A program made the translations under genes and the position numbers. Positions 2,081 to 19,873 of a stretch of 38,524 nucleotides of DNA are shown here, in pieces. Numbering within the stretch: position 1 is the stretch's first letter; the number at the start of each line of letters is the position of its first letter. The notes beneath the pieces are model-generated. The model saw only the letters and a list, made by a program, of their open reading frames with translations. It was not told where the DNA came from and searched no databases. This stretch comes from Allobrachymonas sp. (lineage in GTDB: Bacteria; Pseudomonadota; Gammaproteobacteria; Burkholderiales; Burkholderiaceae_C), in contig JAUMWT010000022.1 in NCBI GenBank assembly GCA_030529505.1, forward strand, positions 1 through 38,524, written 5' to 3'.

Positions 2081-2619
2081 AAGCCTGCGGCAAACAGCAA
2101 GCCCTGTGGGAACTCTCGCGCCAGCGCGACGCCCAACTGCGCAGCACCTGCGGCAATGGCTTGTCGCTTGAATGCGGTGCTCTCACCAAACAAGCCAAGG
2201 ACATGGGCAACAAGCTCAACCTGGGCACGCCAGAGTACAAACTGGCAGGCCCCGTAGCCCGCAGCCCAAGCCCGTACGATCTGGGCGGACTCAACCATCC
2301 TGAAATCACCAGCGTGGCAGATGTGCGTCGGCCCAGCATGCGCGAACAACTGGAAAACGGCTTGTTCCGCTTGCAAGATGCCTATGCCAACGACCTGCCG
2401 GGCACCGGCACCCTTCTGGGGGCAGGCTACCAAGTGCTGGGGGGCAAGATTGAGCACTTGCCGCGCGTGGTGGAACTGGGCACGGAAATAGGCGGCCCCT
2501 TGTCCACACTGGCTAGCGGCCAAGTCTGGCTTGCCCAAAGCGATCAAGGGAGGCCATGTCCAAGCGCCAACAGGCGGCGCCAGGAACCTGCAAGACCAGC
2601 AGTGCGGGCAGCTTGGTGA
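2062..2619 (+). pseudogene. Orphan CdiA C-terminal fragment, no start codon
   Basis: The open frame runs from just after a TGA at 2059 with no credible start; a TTG at 2161 is the first start-like codon. It encodes CGKQQALWELSRQRDAQLRS, then CGNGLSLECGALTKQ and a globular-looking middle part (GTPEYKLAGPVARSPSPYDLGG ... GTGTLLGAGYQVLGG). The cysteine-spaced beginning is like the region of CdiA-type proteins that precedes the toxin. It probably represents an older displaced toxin module (orphan cdiA-CT) left behind the current one. The last ~30 residues turn arginine- and proline-rich (RPCPSANRRRQEPARPAVRAAW), which suggests another frame break near 2540. No toxin family can be named. Confidence 0.5.
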
Positions 2620-2711
2620 CATCCAGCCAAGGCCATATCGACCTCAAAGCCCAAGCCAACTACCAGCAAACCGGCAGCAGCGTCGTGCCGGATAACTTCA
2701 ACTTAACATAA
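2586..2711 (+). pseudogene. Filamentous haemagglutinin repeat fragment
   Basis: In frame 3 the sequence reads TSSAGSLVTSSQGHIDLKAQ followed by ANYQQTGSSVVPDNFNLT and a TAA at 2709. This is the typical repeat unit of haemagglutinin/CdiA beta-helix shafts (set apart by S-Q-G-x-I-x-L-x-A and Y-x-Q-x-G-S). Such repeats normally lie far N-terminal to the toxin, yet here one sits downstream of it and overlaps the preceding fragment in another frame. It is therefore debris from recombination between cdiA copies rather than a gene. Confidence 0.55.
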
Positions 2712-2735
2712 TGCACATCGTATCAAGTCAATAAA

Positions 2736-3014
2736 GAGACCCGACGCCAGCGTCTGCGCAGGCTATGCCGCATGGAACAAGGTTTGCGGCTGCGTTGCCT
2801 GTACTGCTATCTGGGCTGGAGCCGACGGCAATGTGCGCAATTCTTTCATGTCAGCGAGCGCACTTTACATAATTGCCGCCATGAGTTGCCTGGCAAGTCG
2901 TCCACTTCATGGTGCTGCAGCTTCAGGCGGTGTGGCTTGCATGCCATCCGGCTTGATCATTTCTGGTGGTTCAGGCCTTTGCGGAATGGGCAAGCCTTTG
3001 AGTTCGGCCGCTGA
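2736..3014 (+). pseudogene. Helix-turn-helix protein remnant
   Basis: The open frame (ATG at 2772, but in-frame codons ETRRQRLRRLCR already precede it) encodes RCLYCYLGWSRRQCAQFFHVSERTLHN. This is a clear helix-turn-helix of the Cro/XRE kind, as seen in small phage- or plasmid-linked proteins. After about 2895 the similarity stops and the frame runs on in antisense to the end of the ankyrin gene (2907-3710), giving a meaningless tail. The gene therefore looks truncated by the junction with the ankyrin locus. It marks the boundary between the decayed CDI region and the housekeeping block. The source element is not recognisable. Confidence 0.45.
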
Positions 3015-3710
3015 AGCAGGCGAGAGCGGCGTTGCGGGCTGCACGTTGTAGGCTGGCTGACGCTGGCGCTGAGCGTTTTGGATGGTCTGGATGATGTTGG
3101 GATTGGCGCCGCGGCGGGCAAAGTCCAGTGCCGTCATGCCGAGCTGGTTTTTGGCCCAGGGGTCGGCACCTTGCTGTAACAGGAGCTGCACGGCTTTTTC
3201 ATTACCGCTGTATTGTGCTGCCATCATGAGCGGCGTAGTGCGGTTGGGCGACTCGGTGTCGATGAAAGCATCGTGATCCAGCAACAATTGCATCATGGCG
3301 ATATTGCCTTTGGTGGCGGCGTAATGCAGTGGCGCCCAACCGTGTTTGTTGACGGCAGCACCCTGGGCGATCAATTGTTTGGCCAAATCATCTTGGCCAG
3401 TGATGATCGCCAGCATGAGTGGCGACTCGCCAGCACGATTGAGTGCATTGACATCAACCTGGCGGCTTTGCAGCAGAACCGGAATGGCTTTTTCGGACTG
3501 CTGGTGAATGGCCAGGGTCAGCGCCGTGCGTCCTTTGCTGTCTTGCCGGTTGGGGTTGACGCCCCCTGCGATTTGCGTGCGCACACCCGATGCATTGTTG
3601 CGGATGACGGCGGCAATCAGCTCATCAAGGGAAGCGGCAGAAGCTGCAACACTCAACAAAAAAAATCCATAAAAAATAGATAGATACTTTATTCTATTAA
3701 TGCTTTTCAT
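2907..3710 (-). CDS. Exported ankyrin-repeat protein
   Basis: A 267-residue protein with an N-terminal signal peptide (basic MKSINRIKY, then a hydrophobic stretch ending in VAASAAS around residue 26). About five ankyrin repeats follow, roughly residues 28-215, with repeated blocks such as GRTALTLAIHQQSEKAIPVLL, GWAPLHYAATKGNIAMMQLLL and TTPLMMAAQYSGNEKAVQLLL. The last ~50 residues are rich in Pro, Gln and Ala and probably disordered. It is expected to act in the periplasm as a protein-binding scaffold; the partner is unknown. It lies downstream of tatD in the same orientation after 149 bases. It is the last gene of the mltG-tmk-holB-pilZ-tatD run. The confidence is for the fold and export, not for a function. 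Confidence 0.85.
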   Translation of the reverse strand: MKSINRIKYLSIFYGFFLLSVAASAASLDELIAAVIRNNASGVRTQIAGGVNPNRQDSKGRTALTLAIHQQSEKAIPVLLQSRQVDVNALNRAGESPLMLAIITGQDDLAKQLIAQGAAVNKHGWAPLHYAATKGNIAMMQLLLDHDAFIDTESPNRTTPLMMAAQYSGNEKAVQLLLQQGADPWAKNQLGMTALDFARRGANPNIIQTIQNAQRQRQPAYNVQPATPLSPASAAELKGLPIPQRPEPPEMIKPDGMQATPPEAAAP

Positions 3711-6167: not shown

Positions 6168-7256
6168 TCATTGCCTGTGTTCAAGGGTTGCCAATGGCTG
6201 GCGCTGTGTGGAGATGCTGCGGCGCATGCGGGTAGCCTGGGCCAGCAAATCTTCCAGAAACAGGCCGGGTATATAGGGGTGCTCGGCTGTGCGGGCGGCG
6301 CGGGCCAGGTCTTGCGCCCAGGCGGTGAGCGTGGCCCAGTCTTGCAGGTTCTGCGGGCGGGGCAAGTCGTCTGCTGCAAAAAAGCGCGGCATGCCGCCTG
6401 CCTTGATGGCGAGCAGATCGTGGCAGATTTTTTGCAGCACCACCAGGGTTTGCATGGGGCTGAAAGCAGCAAAGGCAGCGCCCTGCTCTGTCAAGGCGGC
6501 TCGCGGCAGGCCTTTCCACAGCTGGCCGTTGATGCCCATCCGGGCCAGGTCCAGCGCGTCTTGCGGGCGTCCGCCTGCGGCGGTGAGCAAGGTGGCGGCG
6601 TCTTCTGCGCCCAGGCCCTGCGTGTGCAGCCAGACCAGGGCCGCATCGTGCGCGGGCCAATGCATGGTGTGCAACTGGCAGCGGCTGCGAATGGTGGGCA
6701 GCAGCAGGTGGGCCGCCTCGCTGGCCAGCACGAAGCGGGTGTCGCCAGCAGGTTCCTCCAGCGTTTTGAGCAAGGCATTGGCCGTGATGATGTTCATGCG
6801 CTCGGCCGGGTAGATTAGCACGGCTTTGCCCAGGTTGCGGCTGCTGGTGCGCTGGGCAAATTCAATGGCGGCGCGCATGGCTTCGATGCGTATTTCCTTG
6901 CTGGGCTTGCGCTTTTTGTCGTTGATTTCTTTCTGCGCTTTTTCGTCCAGCGGCCAACCTTGCTCCAAAGCCTGCGCTTCGGGCATCAGCATGCAGGCAT
7001 CGGCATGGGTGTGTGCGTCCAGCGCATGACAGCTGGTGCAAGTGCCGCAGGCCAGGCCGTTGGGCTGTGGCTGCTCGCACAGCCAGGCCCGCATCAGGGC
7101 CATGCCCAGCTCTTGCTGGCCCAGGCCCGATGGCCCTTGCAGCAGCCAGGCATGGCCGCGTTGCTGCAAAAGCGCAATGGCTTGCTGCTCAATCCAAGGG
7201 GCCAAGGCGGGCGCAGCATCGGCCACGGCAGCAGGTGCAGATGGCGTTTTGCTCAT
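6168..7256 (-). CDS. holB: DNA polymerase III subunit delta'
   Basis: A 362-residue clamp-loader subunit that, with gamma/tau and delta, opens and loads the beta clamp during replication. The degenerate P-loop [10 protein letters not shown] (residues 41-50) lacks the usual GKT, as expected for delta', which does not hydrolyse ATP. Four cysteines (60, 70, 73, 76) form the zinc-binding module. [20 protein letters not shown] and [10 protein letters not shown] (SRC motif) are diagnostic. The start ATG overlaps the tmk stop codon in an ATGA, so it is translationally coupled to tmk. This is the conserved tmk-holB arrangement. An upstream methionine is not available because of the coupling, and the start is therefore firm. 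Confidence 0.95.
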
Positions 7257-7960
7257 AACCAGCCCTTGGCGCGAATGGCCGCAAAAACCTGCTCGCGCAC
7301 GGCATCGACAGACTGGGCCGCGTCAATGCGCACAAAGCGCTGCGGGTTTTCGTCCGCGCGGCGAGCGTAGCCGCGCTGCACGTTTTCAAAAAACTGGGCG
7401 GATTCAGCCTCGAACTTGTCGGGCTGGCGCGCGCCGCTCAAGCGGGCGGCAGCAGTAGCAGCGGGCAGATCGAACCAGAGCGTCAAGTCCGGTTCTTGCA
7501 AGGCTGCAGCCTGCGCGGCTCCGCCCTGCCCTGTTGGCGCGCCCGCTGCCGGCTGGGGAGACGTTTGGGCCAGCACCATCTGCTCCAAGGTCAGCAGGGT
7601 TTGCCAATCAAAGCCGCGTCCGCCGCCCTGGTAGGCAAAGGTGGCGTCGGCAAAGCGGTCGCACAGCACAACCTGCCCTTCGGCCAGCGCCGGGGCGATC
7701 ACTTGTTGCAAATGGTCGCGCCGGGCAGCAAACACCAGCAGGGCTTCGGTGAGGGCATCCATTTTTTCGTGCAGCACCAGTTGGCGCAGGCTTTCGGCCA
7801 GGGGCGTGCCGCCAGGTTCGCGGCTGCACAGCACCTGGCGGCCGCTGGCTGCAAAGGCTTGCGCCAAAGGCGCGATGTGCGTGCTTTTGCCCGCGCCATC
7901 AATGCCTTCCAGGCTGATGAAAAGGCCGCGCGGCGCGCTGGGGGCAGAAGGTGTGCTCAT
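7253..7960 (-). CDS. tmk: Thymidylate kinase
   Basis: A 235-residue kinase converting dTMP to dTDP with ATP, needed for dTTP supply. The P-loop GIDGAGKST is at residues 19-27, the [11 protein letters not shown] loop follows, and the [17 protein letters not shown] substrate motif starts at about residue 100. There is an Ala/Gln/Gly-rich insertion around residues 140-155 ([20 protein letters not shown]) before the LID region. It is longer than the usual ~210 residues mainly through this insertion and the N-terminal tail. Both ends overlap neighbours by four bases (mltG upstream, holB downstream), so the three genes form a tight operon. Confidence 0.96.
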
Positions 7961-10352: not shown

Positions 10353-10625
10353 TTGCAAATAGTGCTTGCAAAAATCAGCAAGCATCGAAAAACGCTGAAA
10401 GCCGTTTATGCCAAACTCACATCAGCGACGATCGCCTTTTCGGACCTGGAGAGCTTGCTGCTGGCGGTGGGTTGCATATTGACAGAAGGGGCTGGCTCCC
10501 GCGTGCGCTTCGACAAAGGCGGACACGCCATGCTGTGCCACCGCCCGCACCCGGGCAAAGAAGCCAAGCGTTATCAAGTTGTGCAGGCCCGCGAGTTTCT
10601 GGAAAAGCTGGAGATCAAGCCATGA
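10353..10625 (+). CDS. hicA: HicA-type mRNA interferase toxin
   Basis: A small basic toxin of up to 90 residues that, in its family, cleaves mRNAs and tmRNA in the cytosol. The sequence SKHRKTLKAVYAKLTSATIAFSDLESLL, then a G-S-R-V-R-F strand and CHRPHPGKE carrying the catalytic histidine, is characteristic. There is no ATG: TTG at 10353 or GTG at 10362 must serve, the latter giving MLAKISKHRK. Family members usually begin just before SKHRKTL, so the true start could be a few codons later. The stop overlaps the hicB start in ATGA, giving the toxin-first order typical of hicAB. It lies 72 bases after ygfZ and is probably a mobile insertion between housekeeping genes. Confidence 0.88.
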   Translation: MQIVLAKISKHRKTLKAVYAKLTSATIAFSDLESLLLAVGCILTEGAGSRVRFDKGGHAMLCHRPHPGKEAKRYQVVQAREFLEKLEIKP

Positions 10626-10957
10626 GCAAGATGAGCCACAAAGGCTATACCGCATACATTGAATACGATGACCGTGACGAGATCTTTTTTGGTCGTATTT
10701 TGGGCATCAGCGACATCATCGGTTTTCATGCAGACACTGTCGCTGATCTGAAGCATGCGTTTGAAGAGGCGGTTGACGACTACATCACCAGTTGCCAAAA
10801 ACTGGGCAAAGAGCCACAAAAAGCAGCCAGCGGCAAGCTGATGTTGAGGGTTTCTCCGCAAGTGCATCGCGCATCTTTGATCACAGCGCAAGCACAGGGC
10901 AAAAGCCTGAATCAATGGGCGGAAGAGGTTTTGAGTGCAGCCGCCAACGCTTGTTGA
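10622..10957 (+). CDS. hicB: HicB-type antitoxin
   Basis: A 111-residue antitoxin. It has an N-terminal partial RNase H-like fold (MSHKGYTAYIEYDDRDEIFFGRILGISDIIGFHADTV, residues ~4-60) that covers the toxin. The C-terminal ribbon-helix-helix part (SGKLMLRVSPQVHRASLITAQ then GKSLNQWAEEVLSA, residues ~78-108) binds DNA and represses the operon. The ATG at 10622 overlaps the hicA stop by four bases, which couples translation. A rho-independent terminator follows at 10999-11021. The longer open frame reaching back to 10313 is only the uninterrupted frame over hicA. Confidence 0.92.
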   Translation: MSKMSHKGYTAYIEYDDRDEIFFGRILGISDIIGFHADTVADLKHAFEEAVDDYITSCQKLGKEPQKAASGKLMLRVSPQVHRASLITAQAQGKSLNQWAEEVLSAAANAC

Positions 10958-10998
10958 GTTGCTCTGACTGCAGTTTTGACTGGTTCCCCATACAAAAA

Positions 10999-11021
10999 GC
11001 CGCCTCATCGGGCGGCTTTTT
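10999..11021 (+). terminator. Rho-independent terminator after hicAB
   Basis: The stem GCCGCC (10999-11004) pairs with GGCGGC (11011-11016), preceded by five A and followed by a T-run. It lies 40 bases after the hicB stop and closes that operon. Confidence 0.85.
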
Positions 11022-11159
11022 GCTTGCTGTGTTGGCAAATGCAGGATGAGCGTTGCGGCTGGATTCGATGCAAGGCTTGAAGGCTCAACGCTTTCCGTCA
11101 CCCAGCTTGGGCTTCTGATGCGCCCTTGCCATCACGAACATCACTGCGTCATTCAGGCA

Positions 11160-11636
11160 TCAAACGTAACGCACGTCCACGATTTCATAGTGGCGTGTGC
11201 CTGCGGGCGCCTCGACAACAGCGGTATCGCCTGCGTATTTACCGATCAGCGCGCGGGCGATGGGGCTGCCCACGTTGATCAGGCCCAGTTTGAGGTCGGC
11301 CTCGTCTTCACCCACGATCTGGTAGGTGATCCGCTCGCCGGAGTCTTCATCCTCCAGATCAACCGTGGCGCCGAACACCACGCGGCCATCGGCATCCAGC
11401 GTGGAGGGGTCGATGATTTGCGCAGCCGCGAGTTTGCCCTCCACCTCTTTGATGCGGCCTTCGATGAAGCCCTGGCGGTCTTTGGCGGCATCGTATTCGG
11501 CGTTTTCGCTCAAGTCGCCGTGCGAGCGCGCCTCGGCAATGGCGGCGATCACGGCTGGGCGATCTTGCGTTTTGAGGCGGTGCAGCTCGGCCTTGAGTTT
11601 TTCTGCGCCTTTGAGGGTCAGGGGAACGGTGCTCAT
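11160..11636 (-). CDS. greA: Transcription elongation factor GreA
   Basis: A 158-residue factor that enters the RNA polymerase secondary channel and stimulates cleavage of backtracked transcripts. The N-terminal coiled coil carries the acidic tip in [25 protein letters not shown], with the conserved D and E residues that hold the catalytic Mg. The C-terminal FKBP-like domain includes [23 protein letters not shown] and ends in YEIVDVRYV. The MSTVPLT start at 11636 is chosen because GGAG lies 9-12 bases upstream; the longer frame to 11663 has no family support. In many relatives greA follows carB; here it stands alone, with an A+T-rich promoter region (11637-11861) between it and the uptake island. 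Confidence 0.96.
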
Positions 11637-11722
11637 GGGAAAACTCCAAAAGAAAACCGCCAAGCGGAACGCTGGGCGGATTGTTTGATAAATGCTTGTA
11701 GGTTAGGTTGTACTCTTTGCTC

Positions 11723-11728
11723 ATTATA
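11723..11728 (-). promoter_or_regulatory. Candidate -10 box of the greA promoter
   Basis: On the minus strand the sequence reads CTATATAATGAG, a perfect TATAAT, about 87 bases before the greA ATG. No good -35 is visible at 16-18 bases, so this is tentative. Confidence 0.4.
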
Positions 11729-11879
11729 TAGATACATGGGCCCAAGAAACAGAAAAATGAACTGCCGAGACGACTTAGAAGCTGTCTGATCTTCCCCCTT
11801 TCCGTTTTTCTTATCTGTTGCATAAAAAATCTTATAAAATTGCAACTATACGTTTCGTGTCATGGAAAGGAGACTGTTT

Positions 11880-14054
11880 ATGCCCCCCCGCCATATCTTT
11901 GCGAGTTGCTTTGCCACCTCCATTTGCTGGGCATGCTGTGTTGCCAAGGCACAAGAAGTCAGCACGCTTCCCGTCACAGAAGTTCAAGCACATAGGCCGC
12001 CCCCTGGAGAAATTGATTTAGATGCAACAACAAACACTGCCAGTAGACTGGGACTGAGCATCAAGGAAACGCCTGCCTCTGTTTATCAAGTTGATCGTTT
12101 CACGATGGAAGCACGAGGCGATCGAACCACTCATGAGGCGCTACGGAATATGCCTGGTATCCATGACGCCAACAAGCCAAACGTAGGAGGCTCCCTGAGC
12201 TACCGTGGTTTCAGCGGCGCTCAGATCACCCACCTGTTCAATGGCACTTCGGTTCAATTCGACATGATAGCGGGGCGACCGGTAGATAGCTGGATCTATG
12301 ATCGTGTTGAGTTAATAGGAGGCCCCTCCAGCTTTTTATATGGAGCAGGTGCAGTAGGAGGCTCTATTAATTACATCACCCGTTTGCCTCAACGCAGCAA
12401 TGCATACGAAGGCCTTCTGCGCTTAGGATCAAATGGTACGGCTCAAGCTGCTGTAGGGCTGAATCATGTCGTGAATGGCGATTCCAAGCGTGGGAATTTT
12501 TTCCGATTGGATGCCAATGTAAAACGCAGTCGCAGTCGCATGCAGGGCAATGTCAACAGCAGCCAGCAAATTGCTGCATCACTTTTATCTGATTTGACGC
12601 CCAAGCTCACACATACTCTTGCCCTTGAGTATCAGCATGAAAAAATAAACCGCCCGTATTGGGGAACACCTTTGCTTAACCCCAGTATAGGAAAAGGAAT
12701 AATACTTGAGGGTACGCGCTACAAGAACTATAATTCGAGCGACGGCAGATACGAGCAAAATGTCAAATGGGCCAGATCTGTTTTCGACTATCGCTTGTCA
12801 GATAGAAGCAGTATAAAAAACACCCTCTATCACTACAAGGCTCAGCGCGATTATGAAAATGTTGAAACATATCGCTTGACACCCGACAATAAGCGTGTTG
12901 CTCGCAATGAAGCCGTGCTGCAGCGCCACAAACAAACACTTATCGGAAATAGAACAGAAGTTTTGGCTGAAACCCATTTAGGGAAACTGAAAAGCGACTG
13001 GCTGCTCGGTGTTGACTACAGCATCAACAAGCAAACGAGATTCCCCTACATTTTAAATGCAGAGATAAGCACAGTAGATCCTTACAATTTTCAAACAGAG
13101 AGATTCTATGATATTTCCGGGATGAGAAGGCAGCACGATCCAGATCGCACAGTAAGGGTTCGTACATTAGGCTTATTCGCAGAGAATCGTACGAAGCTTA
13201 CACCCTCCTTCTCTTTATTAACTGGCTTGCGCCATGACCGCATCAAGATTGACTTAAAAAATCATCGCGCGATCAACGCAAGCAACCCTGCCAGCTTCAC
13301 CCGGCACTACGCTGCAACCACAGGGCGAGTTGGTTTGATGTGGGACATCACTTCGTCAGCCAATGCTTATTTGCAATACTCCATGTCGGCGGACCCACCT
13401 TCTGGCATGCTAACTGCGACAAGCTTTGGTCAAGCGCGCATTAATACCGACTTGAGCACTGGCAAACAGTTTGAAATCGGCAGTAAATTCAAATTACTGG
13501 ACGGCCGCGCAACAGGGACGGTAGCAGCTTATCATATCGTACGCAAGAACTTGGCCACACGTGACCCATTCGACCCACAAAAAACCATTTTGGTTGGGCA
13601 GCAGTCTGCTCAAGGCATAGAGTTTGTAGTGGATGCTCAGCTCACCAAGCAGCTAAGGGCTCAAGCCAATATGGCTTTTGTCAAACCCAAGTTTGATAAC
13701 TTCACAGAAGTGGTTAAAGGCAAGCCTGTTTCACGGGCTGGCAACACGCCCAACAATACGCCGCGCAGTATAGCCAACCTTTGGCTTAATTATGCATTTA
13801 GGCCTGGGTGGAATGCATCTATGGGCATGCGAAGAGTGTCAAGTGTGTATGGCGACAATGCCAATACGATCAAGGCCCCAGCTTACACTTTGCTTGACTT
13901 TGGTTTGGACTACACCCAAAACAAAAATCTAACATTCCGAGCCAATTTGCGAAATGCTACCAATAAGCTTTATGCCAACAATATAACACATTCACGCATG
14001 TTCTATTTGGGAGAGCCTCGTGGCTTCGATGTTTCTATACGACTCAATTTTTAA
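11880..14054 (+). CDS. TonB-dependent outer-membrane receptor, siderophore type
   Basis: A 724-residue outer-membrane receptor for uptake of a metal chelate driven by TonB-ExbBD. There is a signal peptide (MPPRHIFASCFATSICWACCVAKAQE). A plug domain (residues ~40-160) carries IKETPASVYQVDRFTMEARG, EALRNMPGIHDANKP and YDRVELIGGPSSFLYGAGAVGGSINYITRLP. A 22-strand barrel follows and ends in the terminal aromatic motif DVSIRLNF. The ATG at 11880 is preferred because AAAGGAGA lies 8 bases before it; the ATG at 11862 sits ahead of that site. Base composition is intermediate between the GC-rich chromosome and the A+T-rich ABC operon that converges on it, suggesting a separate origin. The ligand is unknown; the neighbouring binding protein and FecCD permease make a metallophore or corrinoid likely. 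No convincing Fur box was found upstream. Confidence 0.9.
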   Translation: MPPRHIFASCFATSICWACCVAKAQEVSTLPVTEVQAHRPPPGEIDLDATTNTASRLGLSIKETPASVYQVDRFTMEARGDRTTHEALRNMPGIHDANKPNVGGSLSYRGFSGAQITHLFNGTSVQFDMIAGRPVDSWIYDRVELIGGPSSFLYGAGAVGGSINYITRLPQRSNAYEGLLRLGSNGTAQAAVGLNHVVNGDSKRGNFFRLDANVKRSRSRMQGNVNSSQQIAASLLSDLTPKLTHTLALEYQHEKINRPYWGTPLLNPSIGKGIILEGTRYKNYNSSDGRYEQNVKWARSVFDYRLSDRSSIKNTLYHYKAQRDYENVETYRLTPDNKRVARNEAVLQRHKQTLIGNRTEVLAETHLGKLKSDWLLGVDYSINKQTRFPYILNAEISTVDPYNFQTERFYDISGMRRQHDPDRTVRVRTLGLFAENRTKLTPSFSLLTGLRHDRIKIDLKNHRAINASNPASFTRHYAATTGRVGLMWDITSSANAYLQYSMSADPPSGMLTATSFGQARINTDLSTGKQFEIGSKFKLLDGRATGTVAAYHIVRKNLATRDPFDPQKTILVGQQSAQGIEFVVDAQLTKQLRAQANMAFVKPKFDNFTEVVKGKPVSRAGNTPNNTPRSIANLWLNYAFRPGWNASMGMRRVSSVYGDNANTIKAPAYTLLDFGLDYTQNKNLTFRANLRNATNKLYANNITHSRMFYLGEPRGFDVSIRLNF

Positions 14055-14120
14055 TACATAACAAGAGAAAGAAAAGATTTGATCATGCATTAGCTATAGA
14101 GTATTTGCTATTGATTAACT

Positions 14121-14156
14121 CTTCCTTTCTGTCACGCAGAGAGGAAGGGGTTTTTT
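14121..14156 (+). terminator. Rho-independent terminator after the TonB receptor
   Basis: The arm CTTCCTTTCTG (14121-14131) pairs with CAGAGAGGAAG (14137-14147), allowing one G-T pair, and six T follow at 14151-14156. It lies 67 bases after the receptor stop and before the 3' end of the convergent ABC operon. On the minus strand no T-run follows, so it serves mainly the plus-strand gene. Confidence 0.75.
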
Positions 14157-14205
14157 ATGAATATTTGTCTCGCAGCAATAAATTAGGCAAGTCGTCCAAC
14201 ACTAA

Positions 14206-14994
14206 CTATTTAATAATTTGCGATATTTTTGTTTTTGTCTTGGGGAATACCCCGAAATCATTCATTGAACATATATCGCCATAAAGATTATTTAAGGTGG
14301 AGATATCCATCACCTTATCCACCGGTCCAGATTTTATAATTTCGCCATTGTTCATGATCACAACATTATCACAAAACCAAATAATATGATTGGGATCATG
14401 AGTACATACTATGATGGTCTTTTCTTGTTCTTTTAATTTATTCAAAATACTCCACAAGTTAATTTGATTTCTGAAATCCAATGCAGATGTAGGTTCATCA
14501 AGAATCATGACTGGCGTTTCTTGAGCAATGGCTCTAGTAATAAGAACCAATTGCCTTTGGCCTCCGGAAAGATTTGTATATGGCTTAAATGCCATATCCA
14601 GCATACCTGTTTCTTCTAGCGCCTTTTCACATATTTTTATATCTTTCAGAGAAGGGGAAAAAATGGCATTCATTCCCGGATTTCTTCCCATGAGAACCAT
14701 CTCGTATACTTGATAGGAAAAAGAGGCACCGTGCTCTTGAGGAACAAAAGATATGGATTTCGAGGTCTCCAAAGGAGTCAAAGTTTTCAATTCTCTTTCA
14801 TTGAAAGAAATATTCCCTTGATAGTTTTTAAAAATATTCGCCAGACACTTAAGTAGAGTTGTTTTTCCGCAACCATTTGGACCGAAAATTCCTGTTATCT
14901 TATTCTTTTCAAATATTGCAGAAACATCATTTAAAATCCTTGCCTCTTTACCATAAAAGAAGCTCAGGTTGTTCACATCAATGATGCACCTCAT
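14206..14994 (-). CDS. ABC transporter ATPase, FecE/FhuC/BtuD type
   Basis: A 262-residue cytosolic ATPase that powers the adjacent FecCD permease. The Walker A motif GPNGCGKTT is at residues 38-46, the Q-loop in FVPQEHGASF near 83, the signature LSGGQ at 142-146, Walker B VMILDEPT at 162-169 and the switch histidine in CTHDPNH at 199. The length and the D-loop SALDFRNQINL fit iron-chelate/cobalamin importers. It is the last gene of the four-gene operon, one base after the permease stop. It is strikingly A+T-rich and lysine/isoleucine-rich compared with the flanking chromosome, which points to transfer from an A+T-rich donor. Confidence 0.93.
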   Translation of the reverse strand: MRCIIDVNNLSFFYGKEARILNDVSAIFEKNKITGIFGPNGCGKTTLLKCLANIFKNYQGNISFNERELKTLTPLETSKSISFVPQEHGASFSYQVYEMVLMGRNPGMNAIFSPSLKDIKICEKALEETGMLDMAFKPYTNLSGGQRQLVLITRAIAQETPVMILDEPTSALDFRNQINLWSILNKLKEQEKTIIVCTHDPNHIIWFCDNVVIMNNGEIIKSGPVDKVMDISTLNNLYGDICSMNDFGVFPKTKTKISQIIK

Positions 14995-14995
14995 G

Positions 14996-16042
14996 CTAAT
15001 ACATCTTTCTTTTTGATCTCAATAGATAAACCAGGTAAGGGGAGCCCAGAAGAGAAGTTACTATACTTATTGGTATTTCCCCCATGATAAGAGTCCTCGC
15101 TATTGAGTCACATGCTATCATAAAAGAAGCTCCCAAAAGACAAGTTATAGGGATCAGATATCTATGATCTGTGCCAGATGAAAGCCTGGTAATATGTGGA
15201 ATCATGAGCCCTATCCATGAAATAATTCCAACTTGCGACACTGAAGTTGAGCAAAGCAAAGTCGCTGTCAATATAAGCACAGCCTTGACGAATTCAATAT
15301 TTATTCCCAAGGATTTTGCTTCTTCATTACCCATGGTAAGGATATTCAACTTCCAGGAAAAAACTAAAGATATAATAAATCCTAAAATAAAAACAGGGAG
15401 TAGTTTTAAAACAGATGCTGAGTCTGAGGTGTAAAATCCGCCCATGAGCCAGAATGAAATCTCTCTTAAGCTTGAGTCGGAAGATATGATTTTTAGATAA
15501 TTAAGTATTGATGTAAAAATGGAAGAAACTATCAGTCCTGCCAAAATTAAATTAACCAAAGGGGTTGACTTGTTCTTTGTTGCGATGAAATAGGCTATGA
15601 ACATCGCCAATATTGAGAATAAAAAGGATGAAACCTCAATGGGAAAGAGTCCAAAAACTATTGAAAATGCTGCGCCGCATGCTGCGCCTGAAGATATACC
15701 TAGAACATAGGGCTCAACCAACGGGTTTCTAAACACTCCTTGAAACAAAAGTCCAGACAAGCTCAAAGATGCGCCTACCAGTGCACTCATTAGGATTCGA
15801 GGGGTTCTTACATTTAAAATGATTGAAACAGAGTTCTCGTCGTGGATCTCGTCAACTTTAATAAAAATAGATTCGTATATGGTTATTATTTCGTTTATTT
15901 TTATTTTATAGCTTCCCCAGCTTGTTGCAAAAACAGTCATGACTATCAGAGCCAAGAATAATAAAAATATATAGATTCTCTTCTTCTTTTGAATAGATGT
16001 GACTTTCTCGGAAAACGATTTATTGACTCCTTTCATAGACAA
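14996..16042 (-). CDS. ABC transporter permease, FecCD/BtuC family
   Basis: A 348-residue inner-membrane permease with about ten transmembrane helices, forming a homodimeric channel for iron-siderophore, haem or cobalamin import. Family marks include RTPRILMSALVGASLSLSGLLFQGVFRNPLVEPYVLGISSGAA, the loop SLGINIEFVK and the late motif VSQVGIISWIGLMIPHITRLSSGTDHRYLIP. The N-terminus is longer and more basic (MSMKGVNKSFSEKVTSIQKKKR) than usual before the first helix. It is contiguous with the methyltransferase gene upstream (start right after its stop) and with the ATPase downstream. Only one permease gene is present, as in BtuC-type systems. Confidence 0.93.
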   Translation of the reverse strand: MSMKGVNKSFSEKVTSIQKKKRIYIFLLFLALIVMTVFATSWGSYKIKINEIITIYESIFIKVDEIHDENSVSIILNVRTPRILMSALVGASLSLSGLLFQGVFRNPLVEPYVLGISSGAACGAAFSIVFGLFPIEVSSFLFSILAMFIAYFIATKNKSTPLVNLILAGLIVSSIFTSILNYLKIISSDSSLREISFWLMGGFYTSDSASVLKLLPVFILGFIISLVFSWKLNILTMGNEEAKSLGINIEFVKAVLILTATLLCSTSVSQVGIISWIGLMIPHITRLSSGTDHRYLIPITCLLGASFMIACDSIARTLIMGEIPISIVTSLLGSPYLVYLLRSKRKMY

Positions 16043-16834
16043 TCATAGCCTCCAATGGATTTTCGTATATTTAGTGTCGTCTTTGTAAACATACCCTTGC
16101 TCGCTTTTAAGATATGTTTGATTTATATAGCTCTTGATTGAATCATCAAACGCATTTGTTTTTATTTTATATCTTGACTTTATGAAATCAAGAACTTTTC
16201 CAATTGTCTTGTGCGATCTATCGAAATGCGTATCATTCAAAATCTTGACCTCTGGACTTATATTAAACTGCCGTAAGACTTGGCATATGATATCCGATTT
16301 GTTTAATTTTATCCTATATTCTTTCCCAAGAATTTCGTATATGGCCTTCTGCTCCTTTTCCCAAGAAGTCATGCCTGAGAACCAAAATATGTAACAGTGA
16401 TTTTTGCTTGAACTGTTCATTTTTGATATGACCTCTGAAATATTCTTCATACTCAAAGAATAAGAGGCAATAACTGCGTCAAATTGAGGGAGACATGCCG
16501 CTTCTTCCCATTTTTCATTGATGATTTCAATGTTTTTGATGTTTTCCTTCTCAATATGGAGTTTAAAGTGCTTTACCATTTCCAGGGAAGGCTCTATTGC
16601 TACAACTTTTTTCACAATTCTGGAAAGGGGCAATGAGAGCACCCCTGGACCCGAGCCTATGTCCAAAACGGTGTAGTGCTCCGGAAAATTGAAATTCTTA
16701 GCTCGAATTATTCCGTCTTGTCGAATGAGATTTGAATCATTGTACTTCCCGGCCTCTTCAGGATCGTCATACAGGTTTTCAATCTCTTCATCGAATGACT
16801 CGTTCCATATGGCATCAAGCTTTTTTATGTTCAT
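16043..16834 (-). CDS. Class I SAM-dependent methyltransferase in a metal-uptake operon
   Basis: A 263-residue cytosolic Rossmann-fold methyltransferase. The SAM-binding motif VLDIGSGPGVLSL spans residues 56-68. The acidic end of strand 2 is VVAIEPSLEMVKHF, and QFDAVIASYSLSM is the motif IV region. The C-terminal ~100 residues (EKEQKAIYEILGKEYR... HKTIGKVLDFIKSRYKIKTN) form a helical extension. It sits between the binding-protein and permease genes with gaps of 2 and 0 bases, so it is co-transcribed and probably needed with the transporter. Its substrate cannot be told from sequence. Modification of the imported chelator, of a corrinoid, or of a metal-carrier protein are possibilities; none is shown. 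The gene shares the operon's A+T-rich character. Confidence 0.85.
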   Translation of the reverse strand: MNIKKLDAIWNESFDEEIENLYDDPEEAGKYNDSNLIRQDGIIRAKNFNFPEHYTVLDIGSGPGVLSLPLSRIVKKVVAIEPSLEMVKHFKLHIEKENIKNIEIINEKWEEAACLPQFDAVIASYSLSMKNISEVISKMNSSSKNHCYIFWFSGMTSWEKEQKAIYEILGKEYRIKLNKSDIICQVLRQFNISPEVKILNDTHFDRSHKTIGKVLDFIKSRYKIKTNAFDDSIKSYINQTYLKSEQGYVYKDDTKYTKIHWRL

Positions 16835-16836
16835 AA

Positions 16837-17997
16837 CTAAAAACTATTTTTCTCCATCCAAGTCAAAAGTTGGGCCTCTTTTATTTCTTTTATTTTCTCT
16901 TCGCTTAAGCCATATAGTTTTTTGTGATACTTGTCCACATACTGATTTACATGAAAATCAGTAAATTTCTCTGGGTAAGCAGCTTTGGCGGAGATGCTTA
17001 AAATAACAGGAACTTCAAGCCTCCAGTCTCCCCACCATGTTAAAAGCCCCAAAGATGCAATTCTGTTATTTTTTATAGCATTGATGCTTGAGATGTTTTT
17101 ATACTCCTCTCTCTTTAATATATCAATGCTTGGAGCGACAGAGCTTGTACTAAGGATAATAACGTCAGGATTTAAGCGGATCAACTGCTCTGCCGACATT
17201 TTCGTTTTTTTCTGATCGCTATAGGCATTCTTGATTCCCGCGTGTTCTCTTACAAATTTTGCATCGCCAGTGTCTTTTCCCCAAACAGAGCCAACTTCTT
17301 TTCCTTTCAAAAGGCTTATATACAAAACCCTTGGCTTATCTTCTTCTTTTATGCCGGACACTCTATTTTGAATGAACTCCACTTGTTCATTCATGAGGCT
17401 TATTATCTCTTCTGCCCTTTCTGTTTTATTGAAAACCTCGCCAAGAAGCTTGATTCCATCGTAATGCTTTTGAAGCTCAACTTTCTCATAATAGCCCGAT
17501 CCATTTATCACCACGAGAGGTATTTTTAGTTGTTTTTCTATTGTTTCGATGGCTTTTTTTGTTATTTCACTGTTTTTTATGTATTCCGAGTTTCTTAATA
17601 TCACCAAATCGGGTTTGCTGGCCACTATGGCTTCAAAATCAACAGCGCCCATAGGGTAGCCAACAATTGGCAGCTCATAAACTTCAGGAAACAAAACAGT
17701 CGTATCTCTTTTTTCTTTTTTTAATTTTGAGTCTATAATTCCGCCTGTTGCAACTATTTTTTCTTTCAAATTCATGGCTATCATGTTTTGAAGCACGAAG
17801 CCCTTATCTATGATTACGACTCTTTTGGGATCCTTGGGAATAGATATTATTTTTCCCCGCATATCCGTAACTTCTTTTATCTCATGAGAGATATGCTTCT
17901 TTTCAATTATTGAATGCTGCTTATCCGAACAACCCAGAATGCAAGAAAAAAGAATGATGCATGCAGAGCAGCCAATTTTTTTAAATCCATCCAACAT
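16837..17997 (-). CDS. Periplasmic metal-chelate-binding lipoprotein (FepB/BtuF-like)
   Basis: A 386-residue class III binding protein. The signal peptide ends in the lipobox ILGC with Cys23, so it is membrane-anchored despite a Gram-negative host, a pattern common in Gram-positive bacteria and some other A+T-rich lineages. The mature part begins VTDMRGKIISIPKDPKRVVII, then PIVGYPMGAVDFEAIVASKPDLVILRN, and the C-lobe has MSAEQLIRLNPDVIILSTSS. These are typical of periplasmic binding proteins for siderophores, haem or cobalamin. The GAGGTG ribosome site stands 6 bases before the ATG. It is the first gene of the operon and lies 60 bases downstream of the palindrome at 18058-18093. Ligand unknown. 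Confidence 0.9.
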   Translation of the reverse strand: MLDGFKKIGCSACIILFSCILGCSDKQHSIIEKKHISHEIKEVTDMRGKIISIPKDPKRVVIIDKGFVLQNMIAMNLKEKIVATGGIIDSKLKKEKRDTTVLFPEVYELPIVGYPMGAVDFEAIVASKPDLVILRNSEYIKNSEITKKAIETIEKQLKIPLVVINGSGYYEKVELQKHYDGIKLLGEVFNKTERAEEIISLMNEQVEFIQNRVSGIKEEDKPRVLYISLLKGKEVGSVWGKDTGDAKFVREHAGIKNAYSDQKKTKMSAEQLIRLNPDVIILSTSSVAPSIDILKREEYKNISSINAIKNNRIASLGLLTWWGDWRLEVPVILSISAKAAYPEKFTDFHVNQYVDKYHKKLYGLSEEKIKEIKEAQLLTWMEKNSF

Positions 17998-18057
17998 AAA
18001 TCACCTCGATTGGCATTAAAACAACAAGCAGATATCCCAATAAATTTATGTCTTCAT

Positions 18058-18093
18058 GCCTATCATAAAATATTCGATATTTTTATGATAGGC
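18058..18093. promoter_or_regulatory. 36-bp near-perfect palindrome, candidate operator of the uptake operon
   Basis: The left arm GCCTATCATAAAATAT (18058-18073) and right arm ATATTTTTATGATAGGC (18077-18093) are inverted repeats differing by one extra base, around TCG. It lies 61-96 bases upstream of the binding-protein start, where an operator or a leader hairpin would act. On the minus strand a TATGAT box lies within one arm, so a bound regulator could block a promoter. There is no T-run, which argues against a terminator. The half-sites do not match the Fur or E. coli NikR patterns that I know. Confidence 0.55.
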
Positions 18094-18469
18094 AGACAAA
18101 GAAGAACAAATAGCCATCCAAAAGATCAGGTATCAAAATCTCTTAAAAATTCTGCTTTGATTTTTCTTCTAAAAGTCAAGTATCGTTCTGAAAAAAACAG
18201 ATGATTTGTTTGAATTTTCGCACAGAATGTACGACGTCGTCACCTTTGCAATGCTTAAGCAGATTTAAAATGAGGTGATATGCATAAGTCTGTTTTCAGA
18301 ATGTTAATATAAAGCAAACTTTTGTATAAGTCATGGCGCCCAGCAGATTGCTACAAGAATGAATGGCTGCCCCAAAAGATTACAAGGTCAACTTTCCGCC
18401 TTGATGCAGAAGGCCCCTCATTGCTATGCGACCAAGGCCCGCAAGAGGTAGAGCCAAATATAGGGCCGT
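18094..18469. other. Gene-free A+T-rich to GC-rich transition
   Basis: No gene is supported here. The first ~240 bases are A+T-rich like the uptake operon. From about 18330 the sequence returns to the GC-rich style of the chromosome, so the right border of the island probably lies near 18300-18350. No attachment-site duplication, tRNA or transposase remnant was recognised at the border. Confidence 0.5.
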
Positions 18470-18832
18470 TTAGTCATGCGGGTTTTGCTCCAGCTTGTTG
18501 AGCAGCGCCTGAATGCGCTCGGGTGCAATGCGTTTTTGCATGAGCTGGATCAGGCCGTCGCCCTCGACCATGGGGCGCAGCACGGCTACTTCGGCCGGGT
18601 AAAAGCGCACCTCCCAGTCGCTCAGTTCCTTGTCGAACTCTTCATCCGACCAGTTTTTGCACTTGGCCAGGCAGTAGACCAGGGGCATGGCCTTGTTTTC
18701 GAGAAAGGATTTTTTGTAAGGCTTTTGCTGCCAGCGGTTGGCAAACCATTCCTTGTGCTCGGCCTCCAGGGTCAGAAGCCGTTTGTTGATGGCTTTTTCA
18801 AGCGATGACAGGGGAAAGCTGTAGAGTTTCAT
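18470..18832 (-). CDS. Conserved-looking protein of unknown function
   Basis: A 120-residue soluble protein (MKLYSFPLSSLEKAINKRLLTLEAEHKEWFANRWQQK... ending LEQNPHD) rich in charged residues, with no signal peptide or membrane segment. I do not recognise a family. Its codon use is GC-rich like the chromosome, and the open frame is clean, which supports a real native gene. The middle part holds two cysteines (VYCLAKCKNW) and a conserved-looking acidic/aromatic block SDEEFDKELSDWEVRFYPAE. It lies between the uptake island and the RNA methyltransferase, 183 bases downstream of the latter in the same direction. Confidence 0.65.
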   Translation of the reverse strand: MKLYSFPLSSLEKAINKRLLTLEAEHKEWFANRWQQKPYKKSFLENKAMPLVYCLAKCKNWSDEEFDKELSDWEVRFYPAEVAVLRPMVEGDGLIQLMQKRIAPERIQALLNKLEQNPHD

Positions 18833-19015
18833 GGATAAGGCTCACTTCGGTTTGTTGTGCGAGGTGTGGTGGCTATTCAGTACTCGAACTTACACCATTG
18901 TTTGCATCAATGCGCAGAAAAGCACGGCTGTCTGCCAGTATCCGTGCACTTTTGCCGAAAAACTGGCGGCAGTGATGCGTGGAATACACAGCTCTGCGCC
19001 TGCGCAGCGATGGGT

Positions 19016-19873
19016 TCAGCCTGCGGCCGATGCGTTTGCTTGGCTTGCTTGAACGCACGCACTGGCGTGCAGGCAAATGGCGGCCGCTGCGGCCACGTTG
19101 AGCGATTCTTCCCCGCCCGGTTGGGCAATGCGCACCATCCGTTCCGCCCGTTGCACCAAGGCACTGGCAACGCCCTGCCCTTCGTGCCCAAACACCCAAG
19201 CACAGGGCGATGGCAAAGCGGCCTGATGCAGCAGATGCTGCCCCTGCAGATGCGTAACGAGCAGCGGCACTTGCAATTGCTGCACTTCATGCAGCGTGGC
19301 ATTTTCAAACAAGCGCAAGGCAAAATGCGCGCCCATGCCTGCGCGCAGCACCTTGGGCGACCACAGCGCCGCCGTGCCCTGCAAAGCCAGCACCTGTTTA
19401 AAGCCCAGGGCGCTGGCGCTGCGCAAAATGGAGCCGACATTGCCTGCATCTTGAATGCGATCGAGGATGATGGTGTTGGCGGCTGGATCAATAGCGATAC
19501 CGACCTGCGGCAGCGCTGCCACATCCAGCACAAAGCCCATTTGCGCTGCAGATGGCAGTGCGCTCAGTTGGGCAAACAGCGCATCGTCCAGCACGTGGAT
19601 GCGCGCCAAGTTGGGCAAGCGGGCTTGCCAAGTGGCTGCGCTGCGCGTCCACAGGCTGTGGCTGAACAGGGCCGCTTGCGGTTGCAAGCCGCGCTGCAAG
19701 GCAGCCTGGCAGAGGTGATCGCCTTCCAGCCAGAGCTTGCCCAGCTTGCGGTAAGCGGCCGGTTCGTGGGCCAGCTTGCGCAGGGATTTGAACAAGGCGT
19801 TGTCACGCGAGCTGATGGGCAGCACTTTGGCCCCGGCGTGTGCTGCAGATGCTGTGCTTGTGCTTTTTTTCAT
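19016..19873 (-). CDS. SpoU/TrmH-family RNA 2'-O-methyltransferase
   Basis: A 285-residue RNA ribose methyltransferase with the SPOUT trefoil-knot fold. The N-terminal substrate-binding part (residues ~15-120) includes [33 protein letters not shown], as in RlmB/TsnR-type enzymes. The three SpoU motifs follow: [26 protein letters not shown] and [12 protein letters not shown]. The target (rRNA or tRNA position) cannot be assigned. It overlaps the rnhB stop in ATGA and is therefore translationally coupled to it. This pairing with rnhB is common in Burkholderiales. The last ~20 residues are Ala/Ser-rich and likely disordered. Confidence 0.9.

Follow-up and report, generated by a model that had tools for sequence, protein, structure and literature searches.

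The window analysed here is a stretch of 38,524 nucleotides from the genome of an Allobrachymonas species of the Burkholderiales (GenBank assembly GCA_030529505.1, contig JAUMWT010000022.1, positions 1 to 38,524), and between its greA and SpoU-type genes it carries an island of five genes, all of them intact open reading frames (ORFs). On the plus strand lies a TonB-dependent receptor of the CrtA family (11862..14054; 730 amino acids (aa), Pfam PF00593/PF07715). Converging on it from the minus strand is a four-gene ATP-binding cassette (ABC) operon that runs from a substrate-binding protein (SBP; 16837..17997, 386 aa, PF01497, E = 3.9e-22) through a class I S-adenosylmethionine (SAM)-dependent methyltransferase (MT; 16043..16834, 263 aa, PF13649 being the best of 11 Pfam matches) and a FecCD-family permease (14996..16042, 348 aa, PF01032, E = 4.2e-86) to an ABC ATPase of the metal-chelate (FecE/BtuD-like) type (14206..14994, 262 aa, PF00005). 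At their listed starts the operon genes are spaced 0 to 2 bases apart; the permease is listed from a TTG, with an ATG two codons further on. Where the two units meet, an intrinsic-terminator-like hairpin on the plus strand (14119..14149; 14 pairs, 6 GC, T-rich tail) would, judging from its match to the consensus, end the receptor transcript ahead of the ABC operon. We think it probable that these are two unrelated units lying tail to tail: a CrtA-family receptor for a copper(II) chelate and an archaeal-type FecCD chelate importer equipped with a cytosolic MT.

Base composition sets the operon apart from its surroundings. The original prediction, made from the letters of the window, had described a strongly A+T-rich operon in a GC-rich chromosome, and the values bear this out, at 35–37% GC against ~63% in host genes. 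Overall GC and GC at third codon positions are.351/.342 for the ATPase,.365/.364 for the permease,.366/.420 for the MT and.369/.375 for the SBP, compared with.611/.732 for greA,.625/.699 for SpoU,.649/.745 for rnhB and.654/.781 for lpxB in the host flank. A richness in Lys and Ile had been claimed as well; for Ile it holds in all four genes (11–14% versus 2–7% in five host genes), whereas for Lys it holds in three (8–12%) and fails in the permease, which at 5.2% is like greA (5.4%). The receptor, at.477/.480, is intermediate between operon and host as had been said, although the island does not reach the SpoU-type gene directly, a GC-rich ORF of 120 codons intervening.

In a search of the PDB, CrtA came out as the solved receptor nearest in sequence to that of the window: the best match is 9rvq_A, full-length and at E = 2.9e-237, which was deposited as a structure of CrtA (also called BfrG; a further entry is 9rvx), and the next solved receptor follows at E = 1.3e-35. 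CrtA has been presented as the prototype of a TonB-dependent family that imports chelated copper for heme-copper oxidases, with a ligand site of six conserved residues (Y130, W265, E337, Q356, H358 and R395) in which the His is essential (PMC12914433). The window receptor has F133, W267, E335, Q354, H356 and R393 at these positions and so keeps five of the six, the essential His included. Among 14 close orthologues, YWEQHR stands at the ligand site in 12, while the two others (L201 and L202) end in V. The receptor tree nests the window protein among Burkholderiales CrtA-type receptors, in a clade with L201, L202 and L203 (SH-aLRT 88, not starred). Taken from sequence, this likeness suggests a copper role for the window receptor.

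In the part of the CrtA paper that we retrieved, crtA loci are described as having a PepSY_TM neighbour in >75% of cases and often cruR before crtA, arrangements that are common and not universal, and the neighbours named there are PepSY_TM, cruR, ExbBD/TonB, PCuAC and ScoI, with no ABC importer among them (PMC12914433). In our comparison, a relative of the PepSY_TM gene (queried with the gene of L207, PF03929 by Pfam) adjoins the receptor in 12 of the 14 close orthologues, L201 and L202 being the two without it, and in 22 of all 27 receptor loci. Six of the 14 have a small ORF resembling the one that precedes the receptor gene in L197 or L203; by eye it is of the CruR type, and in L197 Pfam gave it no name. 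By contrast with the window, no relative of the SBP, MT, permease or ATPase, nor of FmdE, was found near the receptor (E<=1e-3, 1.5-kb flanks) in any of the 27 loci (0/14 for the close orthologues). When the best five candidates per genome were scored, 24 of 199 related genomes, the own one included, had a receptor match at E<=1e-90; none of the eight other genomes of the genus did.

The relatives of the ABC operon lead elsewhere. We scanned the genome collection with the permease alignment and took the best 80 of 552 confirmed loci, at the top of which stand methanogens with 43–52% identity. Candidatus (Ca.) Methanofastidiosum methylothiophilum (L086) carries all four genes, arranged as in the window (SBP-MT-permease-ATPase) and identical to those there at 50% (SBP), 41% (MT), 47% (permease) and 51% (ATPase), the last being the highest ATPase identity in the compared loci. 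A second genome (G217, loci L186 and L223), found with the MT profile, which matched 6 of the 115 genomes of its phylum at E<=1e-20, likewise has the four genes in this order, 73–83% identical to those of L086. The window SBP is 49% identical to that of L186, and 28–35% identical to the remaining 29 alignment rows, L086 apart; its N-terminus bears a lipobox-like ILGC by eye, and the start of the L086 SBP looks lipoprotein-like in the same way. Within 3 kb of the permease, the best 80 loci hold an MT relative in at least 21 cases, FmdE in at least 14 and a TonB receptor in at least 3, figures that are lower bounds because the sequence reaches 3 kb to either side in only 54 of the 80 loci. Among the 21 MT-bearing loci, the MT lies between SBP and permease only in L086. 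As a side observation, the bacteria with an FmdE-domain gene no more than 3 kb from a FecCD permease include, among others, Mucispirillum, Mailhella and members of the Burkholderiales (for example, L111, L120, L119 and L140).

Close relatives of the operon are otherwise sparse in what we searched. The SBP was found at E<=1e-50 in one of 369 sampled genomes of the class, namely the own one, and at E<=1e-85 in one of 344 genomes of the phylum to which a Methanosaeta genome belongs; this one (G1158) has the permease directly after the SBP, with no MT gene between. Across the nine genus genomes the next-best permease is 43% identical, and the MTs of two other members match the window MT at 24–26%; neither the receptor nor the ABC operon was found in the eight other genus genomes. 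A scan of genome contigs for the MT alone found no relative, tblastn of the MT against plasmids gave no match, and the SBP and permease matched plasmids below 60% identity only. The SBP was found in none of 298 Campylobacterota genomes at E<=1e-60, a search run without a positive control, and none of its hits in viral contigs was confirmed. Neither permease nor SBP reached a curated NCBIfam cut-off, and among the best 25 of 192 rows for the ATPase none was met.

Trees were built for three of the four operon genes. The permease tree, made with a quick method from 54 rows that include 42 of the best 80 loci, has a starred clade (98) formed with two Methanofastidiosum-type rows and G1158; in the MT tree (36 rows) the window shares its clade with four methanogen rows, and in the SBP tree (31 rows) with three archaeal ones, support being 100/99 in both. 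Approximately unbiased (AU) tests, on groups named after the trees had been seen, reject a grouping of the MT with host-genus and Spirochaete MTs (p = 0.0045) and of the SBP with the bacterial clade (p = 1.2e-6). Codon usage points the same way: the operon correlates best with Methanofastidiosum genes (r = 0.90), less well with one Campylobacter (0.59) and least with the host flank (0.19). It thus looks as though the ABC operon derives from methanogenic archaea akin to Ca. Methanofastidiosum, or from a source that they have in common with it, and as though a whole transport operon moved between domains. A foreign origin, with different donors for the two halves as the original prediction suggested, is supported by these trees, which put the receptor with Burkholderiales CrtA-type receptors and the ABC operon with methanogens. 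We do not claim a direct archaeal donor, as the window rows in the trees are unusual in composition and, for permease and MT, also long.

Several points weigh against reading the island as a copper receptor beside an archaeal-type importer. On the receptor side, Tyr is replaced by Phe at one ligand residue, and the protein scores above the cut-off of TIGR01783 too, a general model for the TonB-siderophore subfamily (234 versus 223.5 bits); no equivalog model was passed among its best 25 NCBIfam rows. Unlike most crtA loci, the window has no PepSY_TM gene, adjoining or otherwise, and no CruR-like ORF was recognised in it; nor was PepSY_TM found in the own genome, although this assembly is 83.5% complete and the search lacked a positive control. 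On the operon side, support for the precise sister pairing is weak (SBP 89/45, MT 93/84), and the permease, judged by plain identity, has its closest match in a Methanosaeta row (L071, 52%), ahead of L086 (47%). The pull toward AT-rich archaea may be partly compositional, given how odd in composition and, in part, how long the window rows are, and the operon's codon usage also fits the AT-rich Mucispirillum fairly well (0.78). A bacterial intermediary is possible, since no donor above 52% was seen among the best 80 of 552 loci, and the profile searches left out Bacillota and Fusobacteriota. Absence from the genus is soft as well, four of the eight other genomes being less than 90% complete.

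Whether receptor and importer work together is a separate matter, and it is here that we part from the original prediction, which had them brought together as one scavenging system. If they were, the receptor and ABC operon would carry the same chelate from outside to the cytosol, and their adjacency, the lack of a match to either in the eight other genus genomes and the intermediate composition and codon usage of the receptor (0.70 with the operon, 0.56 with the host) would speak for it. Against it, TonB-dependent transporters deliver their cargo to the periplasm, and the two units are convergent, with the terminator-like hairpin between them. A receptor match lies within 3 kb in only 3 of the best 80 permease loci, a count that says little because many of these loci are archaeal and archaea have no outer membrane. 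The relatives of the receptor also speak against a joint system, as none of them (0/27) has ABC parts beside it and 22 have a PepSY_TM neighbour instead; their genes thus stand, as far as the 1.5-kb flanks show, beside unrelated ones, which the original prediction had itself named as a finding that would refute it. The receptor family is, moreover, tied to copper for heme-copper oxidases in the retrieved part of its description (PMC12914433). We therefore regard a single two-membrane system as unlikely. Less credible still is a mixed pathway that would take a copper chelate across the outer membrane by the CrtA-type receptor and across the inner membrane by the archaeal-type importer, its metal then being freed as the chelator is methylated in the cytosol. 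What we infer is that the two units are independent, apparently acquired separately and not as parts of a single matched system for uptake. That the archaeal-like stretch was misjoined to a contig of the host genus during assembly might be suspected from the assembly itself (2.39 Mb in 100 contigs, 83.5% complete, 4.25% contamination). However, both flanks of the island (greA on one side, SpoU-rnhB-lpxB on the other) lie in the same order and orientation, with carAB between, on one contig of the genus relative G002, and since a bacterial receptor borders the operon at one end and a GC-rich ORF at the other, it would take at least two misjoins to produce the arrangement; we give such a chimera very little credence.

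If the ABC operon is an importer in its own right, as we prefer to read it, a chelate or corrinoid would pass the outer membrane by way of some host receptor, the SBP would capture it, and the permease and ATPase would pump it in, the direction being that expected of the family. No signal peptide was seen on the MT by eye, and the enzyme should therefore act in the cytosol, after import, where it probably modifies the imported ligand; methylation there would alter the ligand or aid release of the metal. A lead as to the cargo comes from the surroundings of the operon at L223 in G217, which hold CbiN-CbiQ-CbiO, a second FecBCD, a TrmO_N-FmdE fusion, a TrmO_N protein and genes of an F420-reducing hydrogenase. 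In this one genome the gene context points to cobalt, nickel or a corrinoid, and the cargo of the window importer may by analogy be a cobalt or nickel chelate or a corrinoid. Two further observations were made at L223: the TrmO_N-FmdE fusion gene (6472-7638), near the FecBCD importer and CbiNQO, would be a second type of methyltransferase near FecCD import, and the stretch 2407-3423, between CbiO and a FecB gene, reads by eye like a broken transposase.

More specific cargoes can be weighed against the same matches. An importer of corrinoids (vitamin B12-type), with the MT acting on the corrinoid or a related compound, is a possibility that we hold only tentatively: the best NCBIfam row of the permease is a BtuC model (E = 2.4e-76) and L223 has CbiNQO genes for cobalt transport in the vicinity of the operon, but the B12 models fall short of their cut-offs (BtuC, 257 of 461 and 194 of 334 bits; BtuD, 112 of 281 bits), HI1471, FhuB and heme permeases outscore BtuC in the PDB, and no cobalamin riboswitch was found, no Rfam match in the window having reached the gathering score. 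We are equally tentative about an oxyanion (molybdate or tungstate) or a ferric siderophore. The best PDB match of the permease is HI1471 (3.6e-59), with FhuB, HmuU and BtuC also matched, and the SBP profile matches 4ovk best and then HI_1472 (3psa, 7.1e-17); HI1470-1472 we take to be a molybdate importer. In NCBIfam the SBP scores best with a ferrichrome/ferrioxamine B model, whose cut-off it misses by a wide margin (68 of 374 bits). These similarities are at the level of the family only, and no Fur box within three mismatches was found in the window. We think it quite unlikely that the operon takes up an opine-type (nicotianamine-like) chelator of zinc or another metal, made by other organisms and then modified by the MT. 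This idea draws on actinomycete zincophore clusters, in which FecCD-type importers occur with predicted PF13649 MTs and for which, in the portion of the paper retrieved, modification of the zincophore is suggested (PMC7438024), and the window MT is likewise a PF13649 protein encoded with a FecCD importer. Yet no opine biosynthesis gene (nicotianamine-synthase-like or opine dehydrogenase) is among the family matches of the five island genes, the annotated stretch of the archaeal relative L223 has none either, and the likeness to the actinomycete clusters is one of shared families.

As in the FecCD/BtuC-type importers (HI1470-1472, FhuBC, HmuUV and BtuCD), PF01032, PF00005 and PF01497 are encoded together, but the window operon adds an MT gene between SBP and permease, and its permease and SBP lie below every curated cut-off. 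It shares gene order and, for three genes, tree grouping with the Methanofastidiosum-type operons; unlike that of L223, which is part of a more extensive metal locus, it is on its own next to a receptor gene, and the L086 contig, at 4,433 bases, is too short for the wider context. The actinomycete zincophore clusters differ, in the retrieved part of their description, by holding zincophore synthesis and efflux genes, of which the island has none (PMC7438024). The host genus has its own FecCD loci (L039-L042), where class I MTs accompany FecCD importers in L039 (MT and permease ~11.5 kb apart), L040 and L041, FmdE is present in L040, L041 and L042, and TonB receptors are present in L039 and L041. 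These loci, by contrast, are GC-rich, the L041 genes having host codon usage (0.90), and their MTs, 23–26% identical to that of the window, fall on another branch beside a Spirochaetota row. Since GC-rich FecCD importers, TonB receptors, FmdE and an MT of another branch are thus part of the genus's own repertoire, the island extends a toolkit of a kind already there. At L041 (284-12783, in G008) the genes run SBP, FmdE, TonB receptor, MT, second TonB receptor, SBP, permease, ATPase.

The wider interest of the operon lies in the recurrence of a class I MT beside FecCD importers, mostly in methanogens (at least 21 of the best 80 loci, within 3 kb). The combination of FecCD with a PF13649 MT is already in print for actinomycete zincophore clusters (PMC7438024), and our literature search found no account of the methanogen-type FecCD-MT pairing, nor of its transfer into a bacterium. 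A small, complete bacterial copy would offer a handy route to learning the cargo of the importer and its need for SAM. The case also warns that neighbouring receptor and ABC genes should not be read as one system.

How the island arrived is not written in its borders: no flanking direct repeats were found in 11660-18860, no tRNA in the window and no integrase in a Pfam scan of the eight ORFs of 10559-18832, and so no insertion mechanism is visible. Island and 120-codon ORF (18470-18832, minus strand) fill the space between greA (11160-11663) and the SpoU-type gene (19016-19873), that is, 11664-19015; the ORF has no Pfam, NCBIfam or PHROG match and is found in none of seven greA-region stretches of genus relatives. 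In G002 the single contig reads lpxB-rnhB-SpoU-carA-carB-greA, and carA-carB is missing from this place in the window; a carB query of the own genome, which is 83.5% complete, yielded nothing better than a 25% match at another place. That carAB was simply replaced by the island has become less likely, as carB lies directly upstream of greA in five of seven genus relatives only, G004 and G007 being the exceptions. On the other side of greA, between it and ygfZ, lies a HicA-HicB toxin-antitoxin pair (10353-10957, plus strand), for which the three relatives with both genes (G004, G007 and G008) gave no match between them. With the island on one side and the HicAB pair on the other, the surroundings of greA look like a site of repeated gene gain.

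Over the region, promoter and terminator counts are not in excess of chance (terminator-like sites, 8 versus 7.0 in shuffles). About 60 nucleotides (nt) upstream of the SBP start lies a near-perfect palindrome of 38 nt (18057..18094), TGCCTATCATAAAA-N10-TTTTATGATAGGCA, with 14-nt arms that are 100% complementary; it is perhaps an operator or a leader hairpin, and the archaeal SBP genes show no such palindrome in the 480 and 330 bases inspected ahead of them. Far from the island, at 112-1862 on the plus strand, two ORFs with no Pfam match read by eye as the end of a large secreted protein.

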